A DNA stretch of 64,000 bases from NCBI GenBank assembly GCA_025458865.1, contig JALORP010000015.1:1-64000 (forward strand). The letters run 5' to 3'. How positions within the stretch are numbered: position 1 is the stretch's first letter; every line of letters starts with the position of its first letter. Source of the stretch: Steroidobacteraceae bacterium. Lineage in GTDB: Bacteria > Pseudomonadota > Gammaproteobacteria > Steroidobacterales > Steroidobacteraceae. The position numbers and the translations under genes are program-made. Below are positions 5,365-16,118 of this stretch, piece by piece. The notes under the pieces are model-generated. The model was not told the DNA's origin. It did not search any database and saw only the letters and a program-made list of their open reading frames with translations.

Positions 5365-6078
5365 ATGCCGGTCATGCAGACCTCAGACCTCACGGCCCGC
5401 CAGTACTGGGCCGAGACCAAGAGCAACCCCAGCCGGGCCAAGTTCGGCTTCGGCGAGAAGGCCGCGATCATAAACATCGACCTGCAGCGCGCCTACACGG
5501 ACATCGAAGCCTACCCCACGGCCTACCAGACCGACCCTCGGCAGATCGAGTACATCAACGAGCTGTCCGCGCTCGCCCGCGCGAGGAACATGCCGGTGAT
5601 CTGGACCTACGTCGCCTACATGGACAGCGCCGACGACGCGGGGGTCTGGGGCACGCGCACCAACACCCCGCACTCGCTGCAGAACATCAAGGTTGGCGAC
5701 CCGCGCGCCGAGCTCGACCCCCGACTCGCGGTGGACCGCAAGCGGGACGCCATCATCAACAAGCGCATGGCGAGCGTGTTTCACGAGACGCTGATCCCGT
5801 CGCTGCTCGTCTGGCACAAGGTGGACACGGTGATCCTGACCGGCGGCAGCACCTCCGGCTGCGTTCGTGCGAGCGCGGTGGCCTCGTTGTCCCACGGCTA
5901 CCGAACTGTCGTTCCCGAGGAGTGCGTGGCCGACAAGCACGAGATCCCGCACTTCGCGAACCTGTGCGACATCATGCTGAAGTACGCCGACGTGGAGCCG
6001 TTCGCCGCCGTCAGGCAGTGGCTCGAGGCGCACCCGGGCTGCGCCCCGGTCCGCGAGGCGCGCGGCTGCCCGTTCTGA
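5365..6078 (+). CDS. Isochorismatase/cysteine hydrolase family protein (N-carbamoylsarcosine amidase-like)
   Basis: Catalytic triad motifs: IINIDLQRAY (Asp), INKRMASVF (Lys), TGGSTSGCVRASAVAS (Cys). Confidence 0.88.
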   Translation: MPVMQTSDLTARQYWAETKSNPSRAKFGFGEKAAIINIDLQRAYTDIEAYPTAYQTDPRQIEYINELSALARARNMPVIWTYVAYMDSADDAGVWGTRTNTPHSLQNIKVGDPRAELDPRLAVDRKRDAIINKRMASVFHETLIPSLLVWHKVDTVILTGGSTSGCVRASAVASLSHGYRTVVPEECVADKHEIPHFANLCDIMLKYADVEPFAAVRQWLEAHPGCAPVREARGCPF

Positions 6079-6102: not shown

Positions 6103-7017
6103 ATGAGGGAAGACCCCGGACTCTACGACTACTGGCCCTACGAGGGCCGTCCGAAGATCGCCTGGCCGGGCGGCGCGCGCGTCGCGCTCTGGGTGGCGCC
6201 GAACATCGAGTTCTACGAGCTCGATCCTGCGCTCAATCCCCACCGGAAGCCCTGGCCGCGGCCCGTCCCCGACGTCGCGGGCTACTCGACGCGCGACTAT
6301 GGCAACCGCGTCGGCCACGTGCGAATGATGCGGCTGCTGGACAAGTACGGCGTGCGCGGCTCCATCTCGCTGTCCACGGCGCTGTGCACGCACCATCCCG
6401 AGATCATCGAGATGTGCCGGGAGCGCGACTGGGAGTTCTTCAGCCACGGCATCTACAACACCCGCTACACCTACGGCATGGACGAGGCGCAGGAGCGGGA
6501 GATGATCACTGACGCGGTCGAGACGATCCGCCGCCACACGGGCCAGCAGTGCGCGGGATACCTCGCGCCGGCCCTCACGCACAGCGAGATCACGCTCGAC
6601 CTTTTCGCCGAGGCGGGCGGGATCTACACCTGCGACCTGTTCCACGACGACCAGCCGACGCCGGTCAGGGTCCGCTCGGGCAAGCGGTTCGTGTCGGTGC
6701 CGTACTCGCTCGAGATGAACGACACGATCGTTTACGTCGTCAACAAGATCGAGCCGAGGCGCTACGCCGAGATGCTCAAGGCGAACTTCGACCGCCTGTA
6801 TGCCGAGGGCGCGCACAGCGGCACCGTCATGTGCATTCCGCTGCACGCCTACCAGGTGGGCCACCCGCACCGGCTGAAGGCGTTCGAGGAGGCGCTCGAG
6901 TACATCACGGGCCATCCCGACGTCTGGGTCACGACCGGGCGGGAGATCGCCCAGCACTACCTGGAGCACTGCTACGACGCGGCCGTCGCCGACATCGCCG
7001 CGCGGGGAGGGAACTGA
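6103..7017 (+). CDS. Polysaccharide deacetylase family protein (PuuE/allantoinase-like)
   Basis: NodB-like fold: DYGNRVGHVRMMRLLDKYGVRGSISLS, EFFSHGIYNTRY, MCIPLHAYQVGHPHRLKAFEEALEYI. Confidence 0.85.
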   Translation: MREDPGLYDYWPYEGRPKIAWPGGARVALWVAPNIEFYELDPALNPHRKPWPRPVPDVAGYSTRDYGNRVGHVRMMRLLDKYGVRGSISLSTALCTHHPEIIEMCRERDWEFFSHGIYNTRYTYGMDEAQEREMITDAVETIRRHTGQQCAGYLAPALTHSEITLDLFAEAGGIYTCDLFHDDQPTPVRVRSGKRFVSVPYSLEMNDTIVYVVNKIEPRRYAEMLKANFDRLYAEGAHSGTVMCIPLHAYQVGHPHRLKAFEEALEYITGHPDVWVTTGREIAQHYLEHCYDAAVADIAARGGN

Positions 7018-7018
7018 C

Positions 7019-7945
7019 ATGGCGCTCGACCGCAGCTACCTGGAGTATCCGCGCCGGCGCTACGGGATGGACCACGACCGCTACGACTGGTCCATGCTGA
7101 CGGACCGCAGCCCCGTGCAGTGGCCCGGCGGCAAGCGGCTCGCACTCTGGGTCAACGTCGCGCTGCAGTTCTTCCCGCTGAACCAGCAGGGCAAGCCCTT
7201 TCCGCCGACTGGCGGCATGACGACGGCATACCCCGACCTGCGGCACTACACGCTGCGCGAGTACGGCAACCGGGTGGGTATCTACCGGTTCCTGCAGGCC
7301 TTCGACCGCTTCGGCGTTCGCCCTACGTTCTCGGTCTCGGCGCGCCTCGCGGAGCGCTACCCTTGCCTGCTGCGGCGTTTGGCCGCGCGCGGGGACGAAA
7401 TCGCCTGCCACGGCTGGCACATGGACGCGACCCACTACGGTGGCCTGGACCCGGCGGCGGAGGAGGCGCTCATCGAGCGCTCGCTTCGCACGCTGCGGTC
7501 GCTGACCGGCCAGCCGGTGCAGGGCTGGCTGAGCCCCTCCCGGTCCCAGAGCGCGAACACGCCGGACCTGCTTGCGAAGCAGGGGGTGCGGTACCTGTGC
7601 GACTGGGTCAACGACGACATGCCCTACGGGTTCCGGACCGGCGCCGGCCCGATGGTCGCGATGCCGCTGTCGCTCGAACTCGAGGACGCATTCATCATCC
7701 ACGGCAACCTGCATTCCGAGAAGGAGTATGCAGAGCAGGTCCGCGACGCCTTCGATTTCCTGTACGCGGAGGCGGCCGAGCAGGGCGGCCGGATGCTGGC
7801 GCTGTCGCTGCACCCCTGGGTGCTGGGACAGCCACACCGCATCGGGCGGCTCGAGGAGGTCCTGGAGTACATCACCGCTCACGAGGGCGTGTGGTGCGCC
7901 CCCGCCGGCGAGATCTGCGCCGCCTGGCAGTCGGCGGCCCGCTGA
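7019..7945 (+). CDS. Polysaccharide deacetylase family protein, paralogue of the preceding gene
   Basis: EYGNRVGIYRFLQAFDRFGVRPTFSVS, EIACHGWHMD, LALSLHPWVLGQPHRIGRLEEVLEYI. Confidence 0.85.
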   Translation: MALDRSYLEYPRRRYGMDHDRYDWSMLTDRSPVQWPGGKRLALWVNVALQFFPLNQQGKPFPPTGGMTTAYPDLRHYTLREYGNRVGIYRFLQAFDRFGVRPTFSVSARLAERYPCLLRRLAARGDEIACHGWHMDATHYGGLDPAAEEALIERSLRTLRSLTGQPVQGWLSPSRSQSANTPDLLAKQGVRYLCDWVNDDMPYGFRTGAGPMVAMPLSLELEDAFIIHGNLHSEKEYAEQVRDAFDFLYAEAAEQGGRMLALSLHPWVLGQPHRIGRLEEVLEYITAHEGVWCAPAGEICAAWQSAAR

Positions 7946-10090: not shown

Positions 10091-11029
10091 TCAGATGAGC
10101 CGCTCGATCTCGGGCAGCAGGGTGAACAGGTCCCCCACCAGCCCGATGTCCGCGATCTCGAAGATCGGGGCCTCCGGGTCCTTGTTGATCGCCACGATGG
10201 TGCGGGCGTCCTTTATGCCCGTCACGTGCTGGATGGCGCCCGAGATGCCGATGGCCACGTACAGTTCCGGCGCAATGATCTTGCCGGTCTGGCCCACCTG
10301 CATTTCGTTCGGGGCGTAACCCGCGTCCACCGCGGCGCGCGAGGCGCCGACGCCCGCGTTCAGCTTCGCGGCCAGGCGGTAGATGATCTCGAAGTTCTCG
10401 GCGCTGCCCAGCGCGCGTCCACCGGACACCACGCGTGGTGCGGTCTGCAGGTCCGGGCGGTCGCTCTTGGCGGCCGACACCGTCACGAAGCGCGTGTGCG
10501 ACGGCAGCGGCACGTCCACGGCGAGCTTCTCGACCGTGGCGTTGCCTCCCGCGGGCGCGGATTCATAGGAGGCGACGCGCACCGTGCACGCGATGACGCT
10601 GCCGGGCGCGACCTCGACGGTCGTGATGGCGTTGCCGGCGTAGACGGGCCGCTTGAATCGCGTTGCGGACTCGACCGCCATGACATCCGAGAGCTGCGGC
10701 ACGCCGAGCAGCGCCGCGACGCGCGGCATGAGGTCCCGGCCGAAGGTCGTCGAGGGGCCGAACACGTAGCCATGGCCGGCCGCGACCTTAACGACCTGCG
10801 GCGCGAGAACCGCCGCGAGGGGCTGGGCGTTGGCCGCATTCTCGACCAGCAGGACCTTCGCGACGCCCTTCAGGGCCGCGGCCTGCGCGGCGACGCCGGC
10901 GCCGTCGGCGGCGAAGACCGCGACCGTGACCTCGGCGTCCGGCACGCTCGCGGCGCAGGTGACGCACTTGGCGGTGGCGGGATTGAGGCTGCCGCCGGCG
11001 TGCTCCGCAATGACCAGTACCTTGTTCAT
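10091..11029 (-). CDS. etfA: Electron transfer flavoprotein subunit alpha
   Basis: C-terminal FAD motif [20 protein letters not shown]...[41 protein letters not shown]. Confidence 0.97.
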
Positions 11030-11778
11030 CAGATCAGCCCCTTCTTCTTGAGCATGTCCACCAGTTCCGCAGCGTCCTTGACCATCACGCCCTTCTGGCG
11101 CTGCGCGGGCGGCTCCCAGCGCACGACCTGGGCGGGGCTGCCGGCATCCACGCCGAGCGACGCGAGGTCGGTGACGTCGAGCGGCTTCTTCTTCGCCTTC
11201 ATGATGTCGGGCAGTTTCACATACCGGGGCTCGTTCAGGCGCAGGTCCGCCGTGATCACGGCCGGGAGGTCGACCTCGTCGGTCTCGAGACCGGCATCCA
11301 CCTCGCGCGTCACGACCAGGGTCTCGCCCTTGAACTCGACCTTCGACGCGAAAGTGGCCTGCGGGCGGTCCCAGAGGGCCGCGAGCATGGGACCGGTCTG
11401 GGCGGCGTCGTCATCGATCGCCTGCTTGCCGACGATCACGAGTGCCGGCGATTCCTTCTGCGCGATCGCGTGGAGGGTCCGCGCGGCCACGAGCGGATCC
11501 ACCGGGCCGTCGTGCTTCACCAGGATCGCGCGGTCCGCGCCCATGGCTAGTGCGGTGCGCAGCTGCTGCTGGGCGTCGTCGGGGCCGATGCAGACCGCGA
11601 TGATCTCGGCGGCCTCGCCGCGCTCGCGCATGCGCAGCGCTTCTTCCAGGGCGATCTCGTCGAAGGGATTGATGCTCATCTTGACGCCGTCGGTCACCAC
11701 GCCCGTGCCGTCCGGCTTCACGCGGATGCGGACGTTGTAGTCGATCACGCGTTTTACACCCACCAGGATCTTTCGCAT
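11029..11778 (-). CDS. etfB: Electron transfer flavoprotein subunit beta
   Basis: MKILVGVKRVIDYNVRIRVK-like start, NPFDEIALEEALRMRE, DLRLNEPRYVKLPDIMKAKKKPLD. Confidence 0.97.
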   Translation of the reverse strand: MRKILVGVKRVIDYNVRIRVKPDGTGVVTDGVKMSINPFDEIALEEALRMRERGEAAEIIAVCIGPDDAQQQLRTALAMGADRAILVKHDGPVDPLVAARTLHAIAQKESPALVIVGKQAIDDDAAQTGPMLAALWDRPQATFASKVEFKGETLVVTREVDAGLETDEVDLPAVITADLRLNEPRYVKLPDIMKAKKKPLDVTDLASLGVDAGSPAQVVRWEPPAQRQKGVMVKDAAELVDMLKKKGLI

Positions 11779-11806: not shown

Positions 11807-12853
11807 TCAGATCAGCCCGTCGCGGTCGAGGCGCTCGAGGACGGCGCGCTGCGTGGCGACGAAATGGCTTCGGTCGGGAGGCACGGGACTTCCGTCCGGG
11901 CCCAGCATCGTGTTCGGCGGGTACACCGACCCGGCGTAGGTTGCGGCAAAGAGTTCGAGCCGCTGGCGCGAGAGCAGGTTGCCCATGCCGCCGCGGCGGC
12001 GGTAGCGGCGCAGGGCCGCCAGGTCGATCTCGGCGCAGGCGTTGGCCGACTCGCCGGGGAACGCCTCGGCGCGCACATCGCCGAGGTAGTCCACGACCTT
12101 GGACATGCCGTCGGCGGATGCGAACGGGATGTCCACGCCGGCGATGCCGGCCGTGTTCGCGGAGACGACGTAGCAGAGGTTCTCAAGTGCCCGTGCCCGC
12201 TTCGCAATGTCCTTGGGGGTGAGGCGCGGCGACCCGACCTCGCTCGAACTGTGCAGGAAGACTTCCGCGCCTCGAAGCGCGAGCGCGCGCGCGATCTCCG
12301 GGTACAGGATCTCCTCGGAGGCGATCGCGGCGAGGCGGCCGATCTCCGTGCGGGCGACCGGGAAGACGCCGTCGAGGCCGTAGATGTCGAGGTAGCGGTC
12401 CCACACATCGTGCGGCGTGGGCGCGAACATGGAAACGAGCCGGCGGTAGCGCAGGACGACCTCGCCCGAGGGCGCGACACAGAAGCTTGCCTGGAAGTAG
12501 AGCCCCGGGAAATGGCGGTCGGTCTCGTAGGCGTTGCCCGCGAGGAACACGTCGTGGCGGACGGCGATGCCCGCCAGGGCTTCGTACTCCGGGCCGTCCA
12601 CGTCGAGGGCCGCCTTGTCGGCCCAGCCTTCCAGCGTCTCGCCGAGGGGGTAGCTCGTGAGGAGGTATTCCGGGAGGACGACCAGGCGCAGGTCGCGGCC
12701 GAGGAAAGCCTTGGATCCCGACACGCCGCGGTCGATGCGCTCGAGGTTCTCGCGCATCCTCGCCCGGGCGCTCGTCCGGTCCGGGCAGCCGTTCACCGCG
12801 TGGCAGGTGAGCTGCAGCGCCAGGGCGCGGTACGCGGTGATGTCATCGGGCAT
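11807..12853 (-). CDS. Nitrilase/carbon-nitrogen hydrolase superfamily protein with altered catalytic residues
   Basis: CN-hydrolase pattern with catalytic-Glu context VVLPEYLLTSYP and IASEEILYPEIARALALRGAEVFLHSSSE, where the usual Cys position is Ser. Confidence 0.85.
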   Translation of the reverse strand: MPDDITAYRALALQLTCHAVNGCPDRTSARARMRENLERIDRGVSGSKAFLGRDLRLVVLPEYLLTSYPLGETLEGWADKAALDVDGPEYEALAGIAVRHDVFLAGNAYETDRHFPGLYFQASFCVAPSGEVVLRYRRLVSMFAPTPHDVWDRYLDIYGLDGVFPVARTEIGRLAAIASEEILYPEIARALALRGAEVFLHSSSEVGSPRLTPKDIAKRARALENLCYVVSANTAGIAGVDIPFASADGMSKVVDYLGDVRAEAFPGESANACAEIDLAALRRYRRRGGMGNLLSRQRLELFAATYAGSVYPPNTMLGPDGSPVPPDRSHFVATQRAVLERLDRDGLI

Positions 12854-12937: not shown

Positions 12938-13759
12938 TCAAACGCCGGAGCCTGGCGGTGGGCTCCCTGCTGGCTGGCCCAGAAATCCAGCCCGGATCCG
13001 CTGCGCGGCGTCCCGCAGCCGGGGCAGGAGACGCTCGAGCGCCAGCTTCATCGGCACGGCACTGGCGGCGAAACGGACGCTCAGGCAGGCGAGGCCATGA
13101 TCCTCGAGGTTGACCGGCACCGCGAGGCTGACCTCGTCGGACACGCGCCGGGCCCTGAGGGTGGTCGCATAGCCCTGGACCCGGACCTCGTTCAGGATGC
13201 GCGCAAGCTCCTCCCGATTGCGGGCCAGCGCGTCCTCCTCGCGCTGGGAGCGCGCGAGGATGTCGACCAGCGCGTCGCGCTGCGCCCCGGAGCAGAAGGC
13301 GAGGTAGACCCGGCCGGCGGCGCTCGCGAGCAGCGGTACCCGCAGGCCCGCGGAATGGCGCTCCACGGCGAGCGGGCTGCGATGGTCGGTCGTCTCGCGA
13401 AGGACCATGGACTGGCCCGAGAGCGTCGCGATGGACACCGGCCAGACGATTTCGCGGCAGAGGTCGTCCAGCACAGGACGGGCCAGCTCGCTGACCCAGG
13501 CCTCGTCGTCGAACCCGTCCGAGAGGGTCCGCACCATGATGGTCAGGCGGTAGCGCTCGTCCGCCTGGTCACGGAAGACATAACCGGCCTCGCAGAGCGT
13601 CTCCAGGATGCGGTAGGCGGTGGTCCGCGGCAGGCGGATCTCGGCGGCGACCTCGGACACCGTGGCGCCGTCGCGGCGGTTAAGCACCGCCAGCGCATCG
13701 AGGCCGCGCATCAGCGCGCGAATGGGTCGGGTGGAGTCGGGCACAGCACCCCCGTCCAT
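12938..13759 (-). CDS. IclR family transcriptional regulator
   Basis: RALMRGLDALAVLNRRDGATVSEVAAEIRLPRTTAYRILETLCEAGYVFRD, effector domain LASAAGRVYLAFCSGAQRD. Confidence 0.93.
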   Translation of the reverse strand: MDGGAVPDSTRPIRALMRGLDALAVLNRRDGATVSEVAAEIRLPRTTAYRILETLCEAGYVFRDQADERYRLTIMVRTLSDGFDDEAWVSELARPVLDDLCREIVWPVSIATLSGQSMVLRETTDHRSPLAVERHSAGLRVPLLASAAGRVYLAFCSGAQRDALVDILARSQREEDALARNREELARILNEVRVQGYATTLRARRVSDEVSLAVPVNLEDHGLACLSVRFAASAVPMKLALERLLPRLRDAAQRIRAGFLGQPAGSPPPGSGV

Positions 13760-14873: not shown

Positions 14874-16118
14874 ATGCAGGCACAGACCGGTTGGCGCTTC
14901 TACGGCTGGTGGGGCATCGTGCTGCCGGCCTTCGTGGTCATCTGGATCACGAACGCCCTGACGCTGGCCGGCATCGCGGTGTTCGACCGCGCGATCCTCG
15001 ACGAGCTCGAGCTCTCGCGCGGGGCCCTCAAGTTCGGGGACACGCTGCAGCTGCTGGCCTCCGCAGCGCTCGCGCCGGTGGGCGGGTGGATCGCGGACCG
15101 CTTCGGGGTGCGGCCGGCGATGATCGCCGGCGCGCTGCTCCTGGCCGGCGGCCTGTACGCCTACTCCATGATCGACTCGCTCACCCACCTGTACCTGCTG
15201 CGCGTGGTGCTGGGCGCATCGCTCGCGGGCGCCGGTCTGGTGGTGTGCGTGACGATCGTCTCGCGGTGGTTCGTGTCCCGGCGCGGCCTCGCGCTCGGCC
15301 TGATGCTGTCCGGTACGAGCCTTGGCAATGCGCTGATCCCCCAGCTCAATACCTGGCTGATCGGGCAGCACGGCTGGCGCGAAGCGCTGCAGATCGTGTG
15401 CCTGATCCCGCTCCTGCTTCTGCCGATCGTGCTGTTCGTCATCAAGGAGTGGCCGGAGCGCGTGGGCCTCGCGCCGCTCGGCGCCGCAGCGGCGGCGGCC
15501 CCGGGAGCCGGCGGCCAGCGCGGCGTGCCCATGGCCGGCTACGACTTCGCCCCCGCGCTGCGCACCGCGAATTTCTGGCTCATCGCCACGGCCGCCTTCT
15601 GCACCTTCTACTCGATCCTGGGCCTGTCCGGAAACCTGTTCCTGCACATGCAGGATCTCGGCTACGACGCGGCCGGCGCGTCGAGGGCCTTCTTCCCGCT
15701 CTTCATCATGGGTCTCGTCGGCAAGCTCGCGGCCGGCGCCATCTCCGAGCTGCTGCCGCGCAAGCTGGTCTTCGCCCTGTGCCTCGGCTTCATGCTGGCC
15801 GGCGCGCTGATGCTCGCGACGCTCAAGCCCTCGCTCGTATGGCCTGCGCTGTGGCTTTTCGGCTTCGGCTGGGGCGGCAACTACACGATGCTGCAGGCGC
15901 TGGTGGCCGACGTCTTCGGCGCCCGCTCGCTCGGCAAGATCCTCGGCGCCATCACGGTCATCGACGCCACCGGCGGCGCGATCGGGCCGTGGATCACGGG
16001 CATGACCTACGACGCGACGAATGACTACGGCCTCGGCTTCGGCATCATGACCGCGCTGATCGCTGTCGCTTTCGTCGCAGCCATGCTGGTCCGGACTCCC
16101 GCCCGGCCCGAGCGCTGA
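14874..16118 (+). CDS. MFS transporter (monocarboxylate/OFA-like)
   Basis: About 414 aa, 12 hydrophobic segments, GGWIADRFGVRPAMIAGALLLAGG. Confidence 0.9.
   Translation: MQAQTGWRFYGWWGIVLPAFVVIWITNALTLAGIAVFDRAILDELELSRGALKFGDTLQLLASAALAPVGGWIADRFGVRPAMIAGALLLAGGLYAYSMIDSLTHLYLLRVVLGASLAGAGLVVCVTIVSRWFVSRRGLALGLMLSGTSLGNALIPQLNTWLIGQHGWREALQIVCLIPLLLLPIVLFVIKEWPERVGLAPLGAAAAAAPGAGGQRGVPMAGYDFAPALRTANFWLIATAAFCTFYSILGLSGNLFLHMQDLGYDAAGASRAFFPLFIMGLVGKLAAGAISELLPRKLVFALCLGFMLAGALMLATLKPSLVWPALWLFGFGWGGNYTMLQALVADVFGARSLGKILGAITVIDATGGAIGPWITGMTYDATNDYGLGFGIMTALIAVAFVAAMLVRTPARPER

Follow-up and report, generated by a model that had tools for sequence, protein, structure and literature searches.

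The window analyzed here, a stretch of 64,000 nucleotides from a Steroidobacteraceae bacterium, contains a gene for a protein of the nitrilase superfamily that has a serine at the position of the catalytic cysteine. By convention, the chemistry of this superfamily is defined by its Glu-Lys-Cys triad. The locus thus raises the question whether such a protein is still an enzyme, how its altered active site has arisen, and with which of its neighbors it is functionally connected.

Catalytic positions and predicted fold

The open reading frame (11807-12853, minus strand, including the stop codon) encodes 348 amino acids from its ATG. Residues 52-286 match the CN_hydrolase profile PF00795 with 89.3 bits (cut-off 23.2), and the translation contains the nucleophile segment RLAAIASEEILYPEIARALALRGAEVFL. 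When the protein was aligned with HMMER to formamidases and aliphatic amidases of known structure, the nucleophile of these enzymes came to lie opposite Ser179 (codon TCC, 12317-12319, minus strand), the lysine of their YRK motif opposite Arg138 (codon CGG, 12440-12442, minus strand), and the glutamate of their PEY motif opposite Glu62 (codon 12668-12670, minus strand). A preliminary description of the locus had read a Ser in place of the Cys, an Arg in place of the Lys, and a retained Glu context from the sequence; translation, profile match and alignments confirm the Ser, and the alignments also the Arg and the Glu.

All 149 distinct sequences of the family contain Glu62, Arg138 and Ser179, so that both the catalytic Lys and the catalytic Cys of the PF00795 superfamily are missing throughout. 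No conserved Cys was found elsewhere in these 149 sequences, the best column being C17 with 66%. Members of the superfamily have a second conserved Glu, namely Glu132 in MtCPA and Glu142 in the G. pallidus amidase. This residue has no obvious counterpart in the Ser-type protein, because, compared with the closest ordinary group, about four residues are missing from the loop that follows Arg138; there is no Glu at +8 after Arg138, and Asp149 is invariant in the Ser clade. As judged from the alignments, three catalytic positions appear to be altered or missing compared to the superfamily.

An AlphaFold2 model was built from 70 family sequences and has a mean pLDDT of 95.3. In a Foldseek search it matched 205 PDB chains at E<=0.001; the top solved folds are formamidases and aliphatic amidases, and formamidase 5g3p is the best match (E 3e-21). 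Ser179 is located between the strand 172-176 and the helix 180-183 of the model, which is the position of the nucleophile elbow. The prediction supports the view that the Ser179 protein has retained the nitrilase fold and the nucleophile elbow. Fold, length, Glu62 and nucleophile elbow are shared with the AmiE/AmiF branch of PF00795, i.e., the aliphatic amidases and formamidases (best PDB entries 5g3p, 2uxy and 2dyu). However, the Ser-type protein differs from this branch by the replacements of Lys by Arg, Cys by Ser, Asn by Gln at position 121 and Trp by Lys at position 214 as well as in the second Glu, and it scores far below the cut-offs of the NCBIfam equivalogs for formamidase (57.9 versus 406 bits) and aliphatic amidase (50.8 versus 427 bits).

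Conservation, distribution and order of the substitutions

One genome per species was scanned with a loose threshold, which yielded 429 candidate stretches encoding a relative. Glu62, Arg138 and Ser179 are present in each of the best 80 of these 429 (GTDB, 56-82% identity). The set was extended by genome searches, and the relatives retained at E < 1e-60 comprise 149 distinct Glu-Arg-Ser, 14 Glu-Arg-Cys and five Glu-Lys-Cys sequences; the top-scoring relatives are the Glu-Arg-Ser set without exception. Glu-Arg-Ser is conserved far beyond chance. Ser179 is encoded by TCN codons in 75 and by AGY codons in five of the best 80 (of 429). Comparison of the window gene with close relatives gave dN values of 0.13-0.20 and dS values of 0.84-2.0, and the Ser clade is under purifying selection.

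The one-genome-per-species scan detected carriers in Pseudomonadota, Acidobacteriota, Bacteroidota, Cyanobacteriota and Bacillota, and a member of the Glu-Arg-Ser family with 55% identity from Actinomycetota adds a sixth phylum. Cultivable carriers include Sphingobium, Niveispirillum irakense and Lysobacter. Carriage is patchy, with three of 299 genomes across the phylum and about seven of 369 across the class; within the order it is 107 of 396, where the threshold also lets in the Glu-Arg-Cys sister.

A maximum-likelihood tree was built without the columns 62, 138, 178, 179, 180 and 205. The Ser clade is single (bootstrap/SH-aLRT 100/99), the Glu-Arg-Cys sequences (rows L138, L159, L177 and L231-L241) form its sister (100/100), and the union of the two has a support of 99/95. 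Both are nested among Glu-Lys-Cys relatives, and a second tree is consistent with this. The idea that Ser and Arg might mark a conserved clade is therefore borne out, as all 149 sequences fall into one supported clade. At least two of the five closest Glu-Lys-Cys rows are tandem double-domain proteins, which makes the tree position of these rows less certain; regardless of them, support is 100% for both the Ser clade and the Cys sister. The family's nearest relatives with Glu-Lys-Cys are open frames of about 650-690 amino acids (L179, L180, L181 and L183, in genomes G682 and G690), and the two that were scanned (L179, L181) contain two CN_hydrolase stretches in tandem each. As the sister has Glu-Arg-Cys and the superfamily at large Glu-Lys-Cys, the simplest order, and on these sequences most likely the real one, would be that Lys was replaced by Arg first and Cys by Ser second.

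Further active-site residues have been co-fixed (all codons on the minus strand). Gln121 (12491-12493) is invariant in the Ser clade (149/149), and position 214 (12212-12214) is occupied by Lys in 145 and by Arg in four of the 149 sequences; ordinary Glu-Lys-Cys relatives have Asn and Trp at these positions (23/25 in both cases), as do the Glu-Arg-Cys proteins (9/9 in both cases). Glu180 (12314-12316), which is the residue directly after Ser179, is present in 148 of 149 sequences, and Glu205 (12239-12241), in the loop past the strand after the nucleophile helix, in all of them. The stem of the Ser clade has also fixed Tyr63, Phe115 and Ala178 (alignment columns). The Glu-Arg-Cys sister, which is likewise uncharacterised, has Arg138 and most motifs in common with the Ser clade, but has retained Cys179, Trp214 and Asn121 and has Pro178, Gly/Ala180 and Asp205. 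Because other substitutions in active-site motifs were fixed and purifying selection acts on the clade, the active site looks rebuilt rather than decayed.

The Ser clade is not the only Cys-less lineage in this part of the superfamily, and the tree requires at least four changes between Cys and non-Cys. A subfamily with the motif AxExxxPE (L088, L089, L090, L127 and L128), found in haloarchaea, proteobacteria and Tsukamurella and represented, e.g., in Haladaptatus, is about 30% identical to the Ser-type protein; it differs in that it has kept the Lys and has Ala at the Cys position. In the tree, the Glu-Lys-Ala subfamily represents a separate loss of the Cys, independent of the Ser clade. Glu-Lys-Gly relatives (L143 at 1477 and L184 at 1008, in G647 and G691) lie near Glu-Lys-Cys relatives on the opposite strand. 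On contig C31 (15531-16412, L082), the genome of the window (G000) itself encodes a Cys-less relative in which the nucleophile elbow is shortened (e.g. SSVQWEPE) and Glu and Lys are retained. The same type occurs at L021 (3633), L027 (2784), L142 and L146, and in L021 and L027 it is found beside the Ser-type gene. In addition, contig C53 of this genome contains a second family copy (2106-2540; L083, and L186 near 2265), which has an in-frame gap at about residues 64-264, with the N-terminal 57 residues joined directly to the C-terminal 83. It is either a deletion derivative or an assembly artefact, and it adjoins a gene for a TRAP-type binding protein on the other strand.

Genomic neighborhood and possible functions

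Two adjacent PuuE-type hydrolase genes are encoded in the window. The first (6103-7017, plus strand), which has a polysaccharide-deacetylase fold, is the best-supported functional partner; the second lies at 7019-7945 (plus strand). Both match Polysacc_deac_1, and their top NCBIfam model is the PuuE allantoinase, below its cut-off. Of the best 80 loci (of 429), 11 and 13 have homologs of the two genes near the Ser-type gene, with up to 79% identity. Among 59 relatives, all ten genomes with the first PuuE-type hydrolase belong to the 14 with the Ser-type gene (Fisher 1.6e-8, ignoring shared ancestry), and among 369 genomes of the class four of the five with this hydrolase also carry the Ser-type gene (Fisher 2.3e-7, again ignoring shared ancestry). 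The local clusters span several classes, and the partner genes are missing from many loci. An isochorismatase-fold hydrolase is encoded at 5365-6078 (plus strand), and similar genes (cluster c23) are found near seven of the 80 best family genes. An aldehyde dehydrogenase gene is present near the Ser-type gene in 43 of the best 80 loci (of 429); the window has no adjacent one.

Genes of the dihydropyrimidinase type occur near six of the best 80 loci (of 429), and one lies directly downstream of the Ser-type gene in G690. The latter scores above the cut-off for an ordinary dihydroorotase (647 versus 535 bits), and this link was therefore not taken as pathway evidence. Upstream of the nitrilase-type gene and on the same strand, an IclR-type regulator is encoded (12938-13759, minus strand), an arrangement that three of the closest relatives share. 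The window also contains a gene for a small HapK/REDY-like protein (PF11639; 14513-14824), which adjoins an MFS transporter gene (14874-16118). Relatives of the transporter recur near the Ser-type gene in 23 of the best 80 loci (of 429).

We slightly favor the view that the Ser-type protein is a working enzyme, which would catalyze a substrate-specific step in the catabolism of a nitrogen-containing compound, with an intermediate similar to an amide or ureide as its substrate. The family would be an old branch of the superfamily whose active site was rebuilt stepwise, from Glu-Lys-Cys via Glu-Arg-Cys to Glu-Arg-Ser, and tree and alignment support this course. The protein would act beside the hydrolases of the PuuE type and of the isochorismatase fold, joined in many genomes by an aldehyde dehydrogenase, and its place in the pathway might be roughly that of beta-ureidopropionase in pyrimidine breakdown. 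The analogy to beta-ureidopropionase and N-carbamoylputrescine amidase lies in a nitrilase-fold step beside a hydrolase of the cyclic-ureide type and an aldehyde dehydrogenase. However, these enzymes have the canonical triad, and the Ser-type protein scores only 46.3 on TIGR03381, the N-carbamoylputrescine amidase model (cut-off 410). Within the active site, Glu62 may be the general base, Ser179 may serve as nucleophile or position a water molecule, and Arg138 and Lys214 could stabilize negative charge. The Lys or Arg at position 214 is a possible substitute for the catalytic Lys, but the Arg in four of 149 sequences would be odd for a general base. Reactivity of the residue was strongly diminished in the C158S variant of N-carbamoylputrescine amidase (PMC4812014), and therefore catalysis by the Ser-type protein has to be viewed with caution. 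A more specific version of the proposal is offered only tentatively: the protein may be a serine-based hydrolase on the nitrilase fold, with Ser179 as nucleophile assisted by Glu62 and Arg138/Lys214, in a degradation pathway with PuuE-type hydrolases, which would have originated once, via a stage kept in the Glu-Arg-Cys sister, and would have spread to at least six phyla.

The preliminary description had left the choice between a pseudo-enzyme, a binding protein and different chemistry. The missing Glu-Lys-Cys triad and the conserved clade uphold altered chemistry or binding. A pseudo-enzyme, i.e., a protein that does not catalyze a reaction but binds a ligand, regulates or acts as a scaffold, with a pathway intermediate in the old pocket, is a serious rival, which we regard as less likely. 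It would be in accordance with the three altered or missing catalytic positions, with the engineered Cys to Ser exchange, which keeps binding while strongly diminishing reactivity (PMC4812014), and with the nearby Cys-less lineages (Ala, Gly, Val/Thr) and the repeated changes at the Cys position in the tree. However, the pocket-motif residues show the invariance of those of an enzyme, the synteny is with metabolic enzymes, and there is no regular partner paralog that could be regulated. As the invariant charged residues Glu180, Glu205 and Lys214 have been gained, and constraint has not been lost, a working enzyme is weighed above a binding protein.

The gene lies directly upstream of etfB (11029-11778) and etfA (10091-11029), all on the minus strand, as had been described before; its distance to etfB is 28 bp. 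This adjacency, which is kept in the seven closest of the best 80 relatives (of 429), had led to the suggestion that the Ser-type protein works with EtfAB in an ETF-linked oxidation. In G090, a flavoprotein gene is located about 11 kb from the Ser-type gene and resembles ETF-QO by eye, although its profile score only indicates a FixC-like oxidoreductase. The comparative data make an ETF-linked function very improbable. The etfB-etfA pair (10091-11778) is the sole ETF of the genome (assembly 87% complete) and therefore probably a general ETF. No ETF gene is within reach in the other 73 of the best 80 loci, and in four genomes (G663, G665, G670 and G690) etfBA and the Ser-type gene are on different contigs. 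Moreover, G648, from the same genus, contains etfBA, while a Ser-type gene was not detected. With only seven of 80 loci and a sole genomic ETF, a dedicated linkage is not supported as a family trait, and the adjacency most probably reflects a local gene order of the closest relatives. The PuuE-type pair is a stronger link than the ETF.

A sequencing error, private mutation or pseudogene can be dismissed almost with certainty: the truncated copy on contig C53 indicates that loss-of-function copies may occur, but the Ser is neither sporadic nor compensated by a conserved Cys elsewhere, the frame is intact and under purifying selection, and both the best 80 relatives (of 429) and all 149 distinct sequences share Glu-Arg-Ser.

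Precedent and implications

Relatives of vanin and symplectin from squid have been reported to contain E-K-S and E-R-S triads, and it was remarked that the Ser could still serve as nucleophile (PMC5541922). The triad itself therefore has a precedent, and the Glu-Arg-Ser combination is common to both groups. However, the squid proteins are animal two-domain proteins of the vanin type, in which Ser has arisen several times but is uniform in a single group (PMC5541922), in contrast to the bacterial family, which is one clade of single-domain proteins of 348 amino acids that always have Ser and Arg. The squid case is the only one of Ser- or Cys-less nitrilases in the literature searched, with most subscription journals outside its scope, and a description of the bacterial Glu-Arg-Ser clade was not found in this literature. 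Further searches of this literature retrieved nothing useful about a nitrilase in one cluster with PuuE, isochorismatase or ETF.

The cluster of PuuE-type, isochorismatase-fold and aldehyde dehydrogenase genes points to a degradation route for nitrogen compounds, of which no description was found in the literature searched. Cys-less relatives receive the default name "nitrilase-related carbon-nitrogen hydrolase", and the Glu-Arg-Ser clade warns against the assignment of an amidase function from the CN_hydrolase domain alone. The extant Glu-Arg-Cys and Glu-Lys-Cys relatives make the stepwise switch of the nucleophile directly testable, residue by residue.
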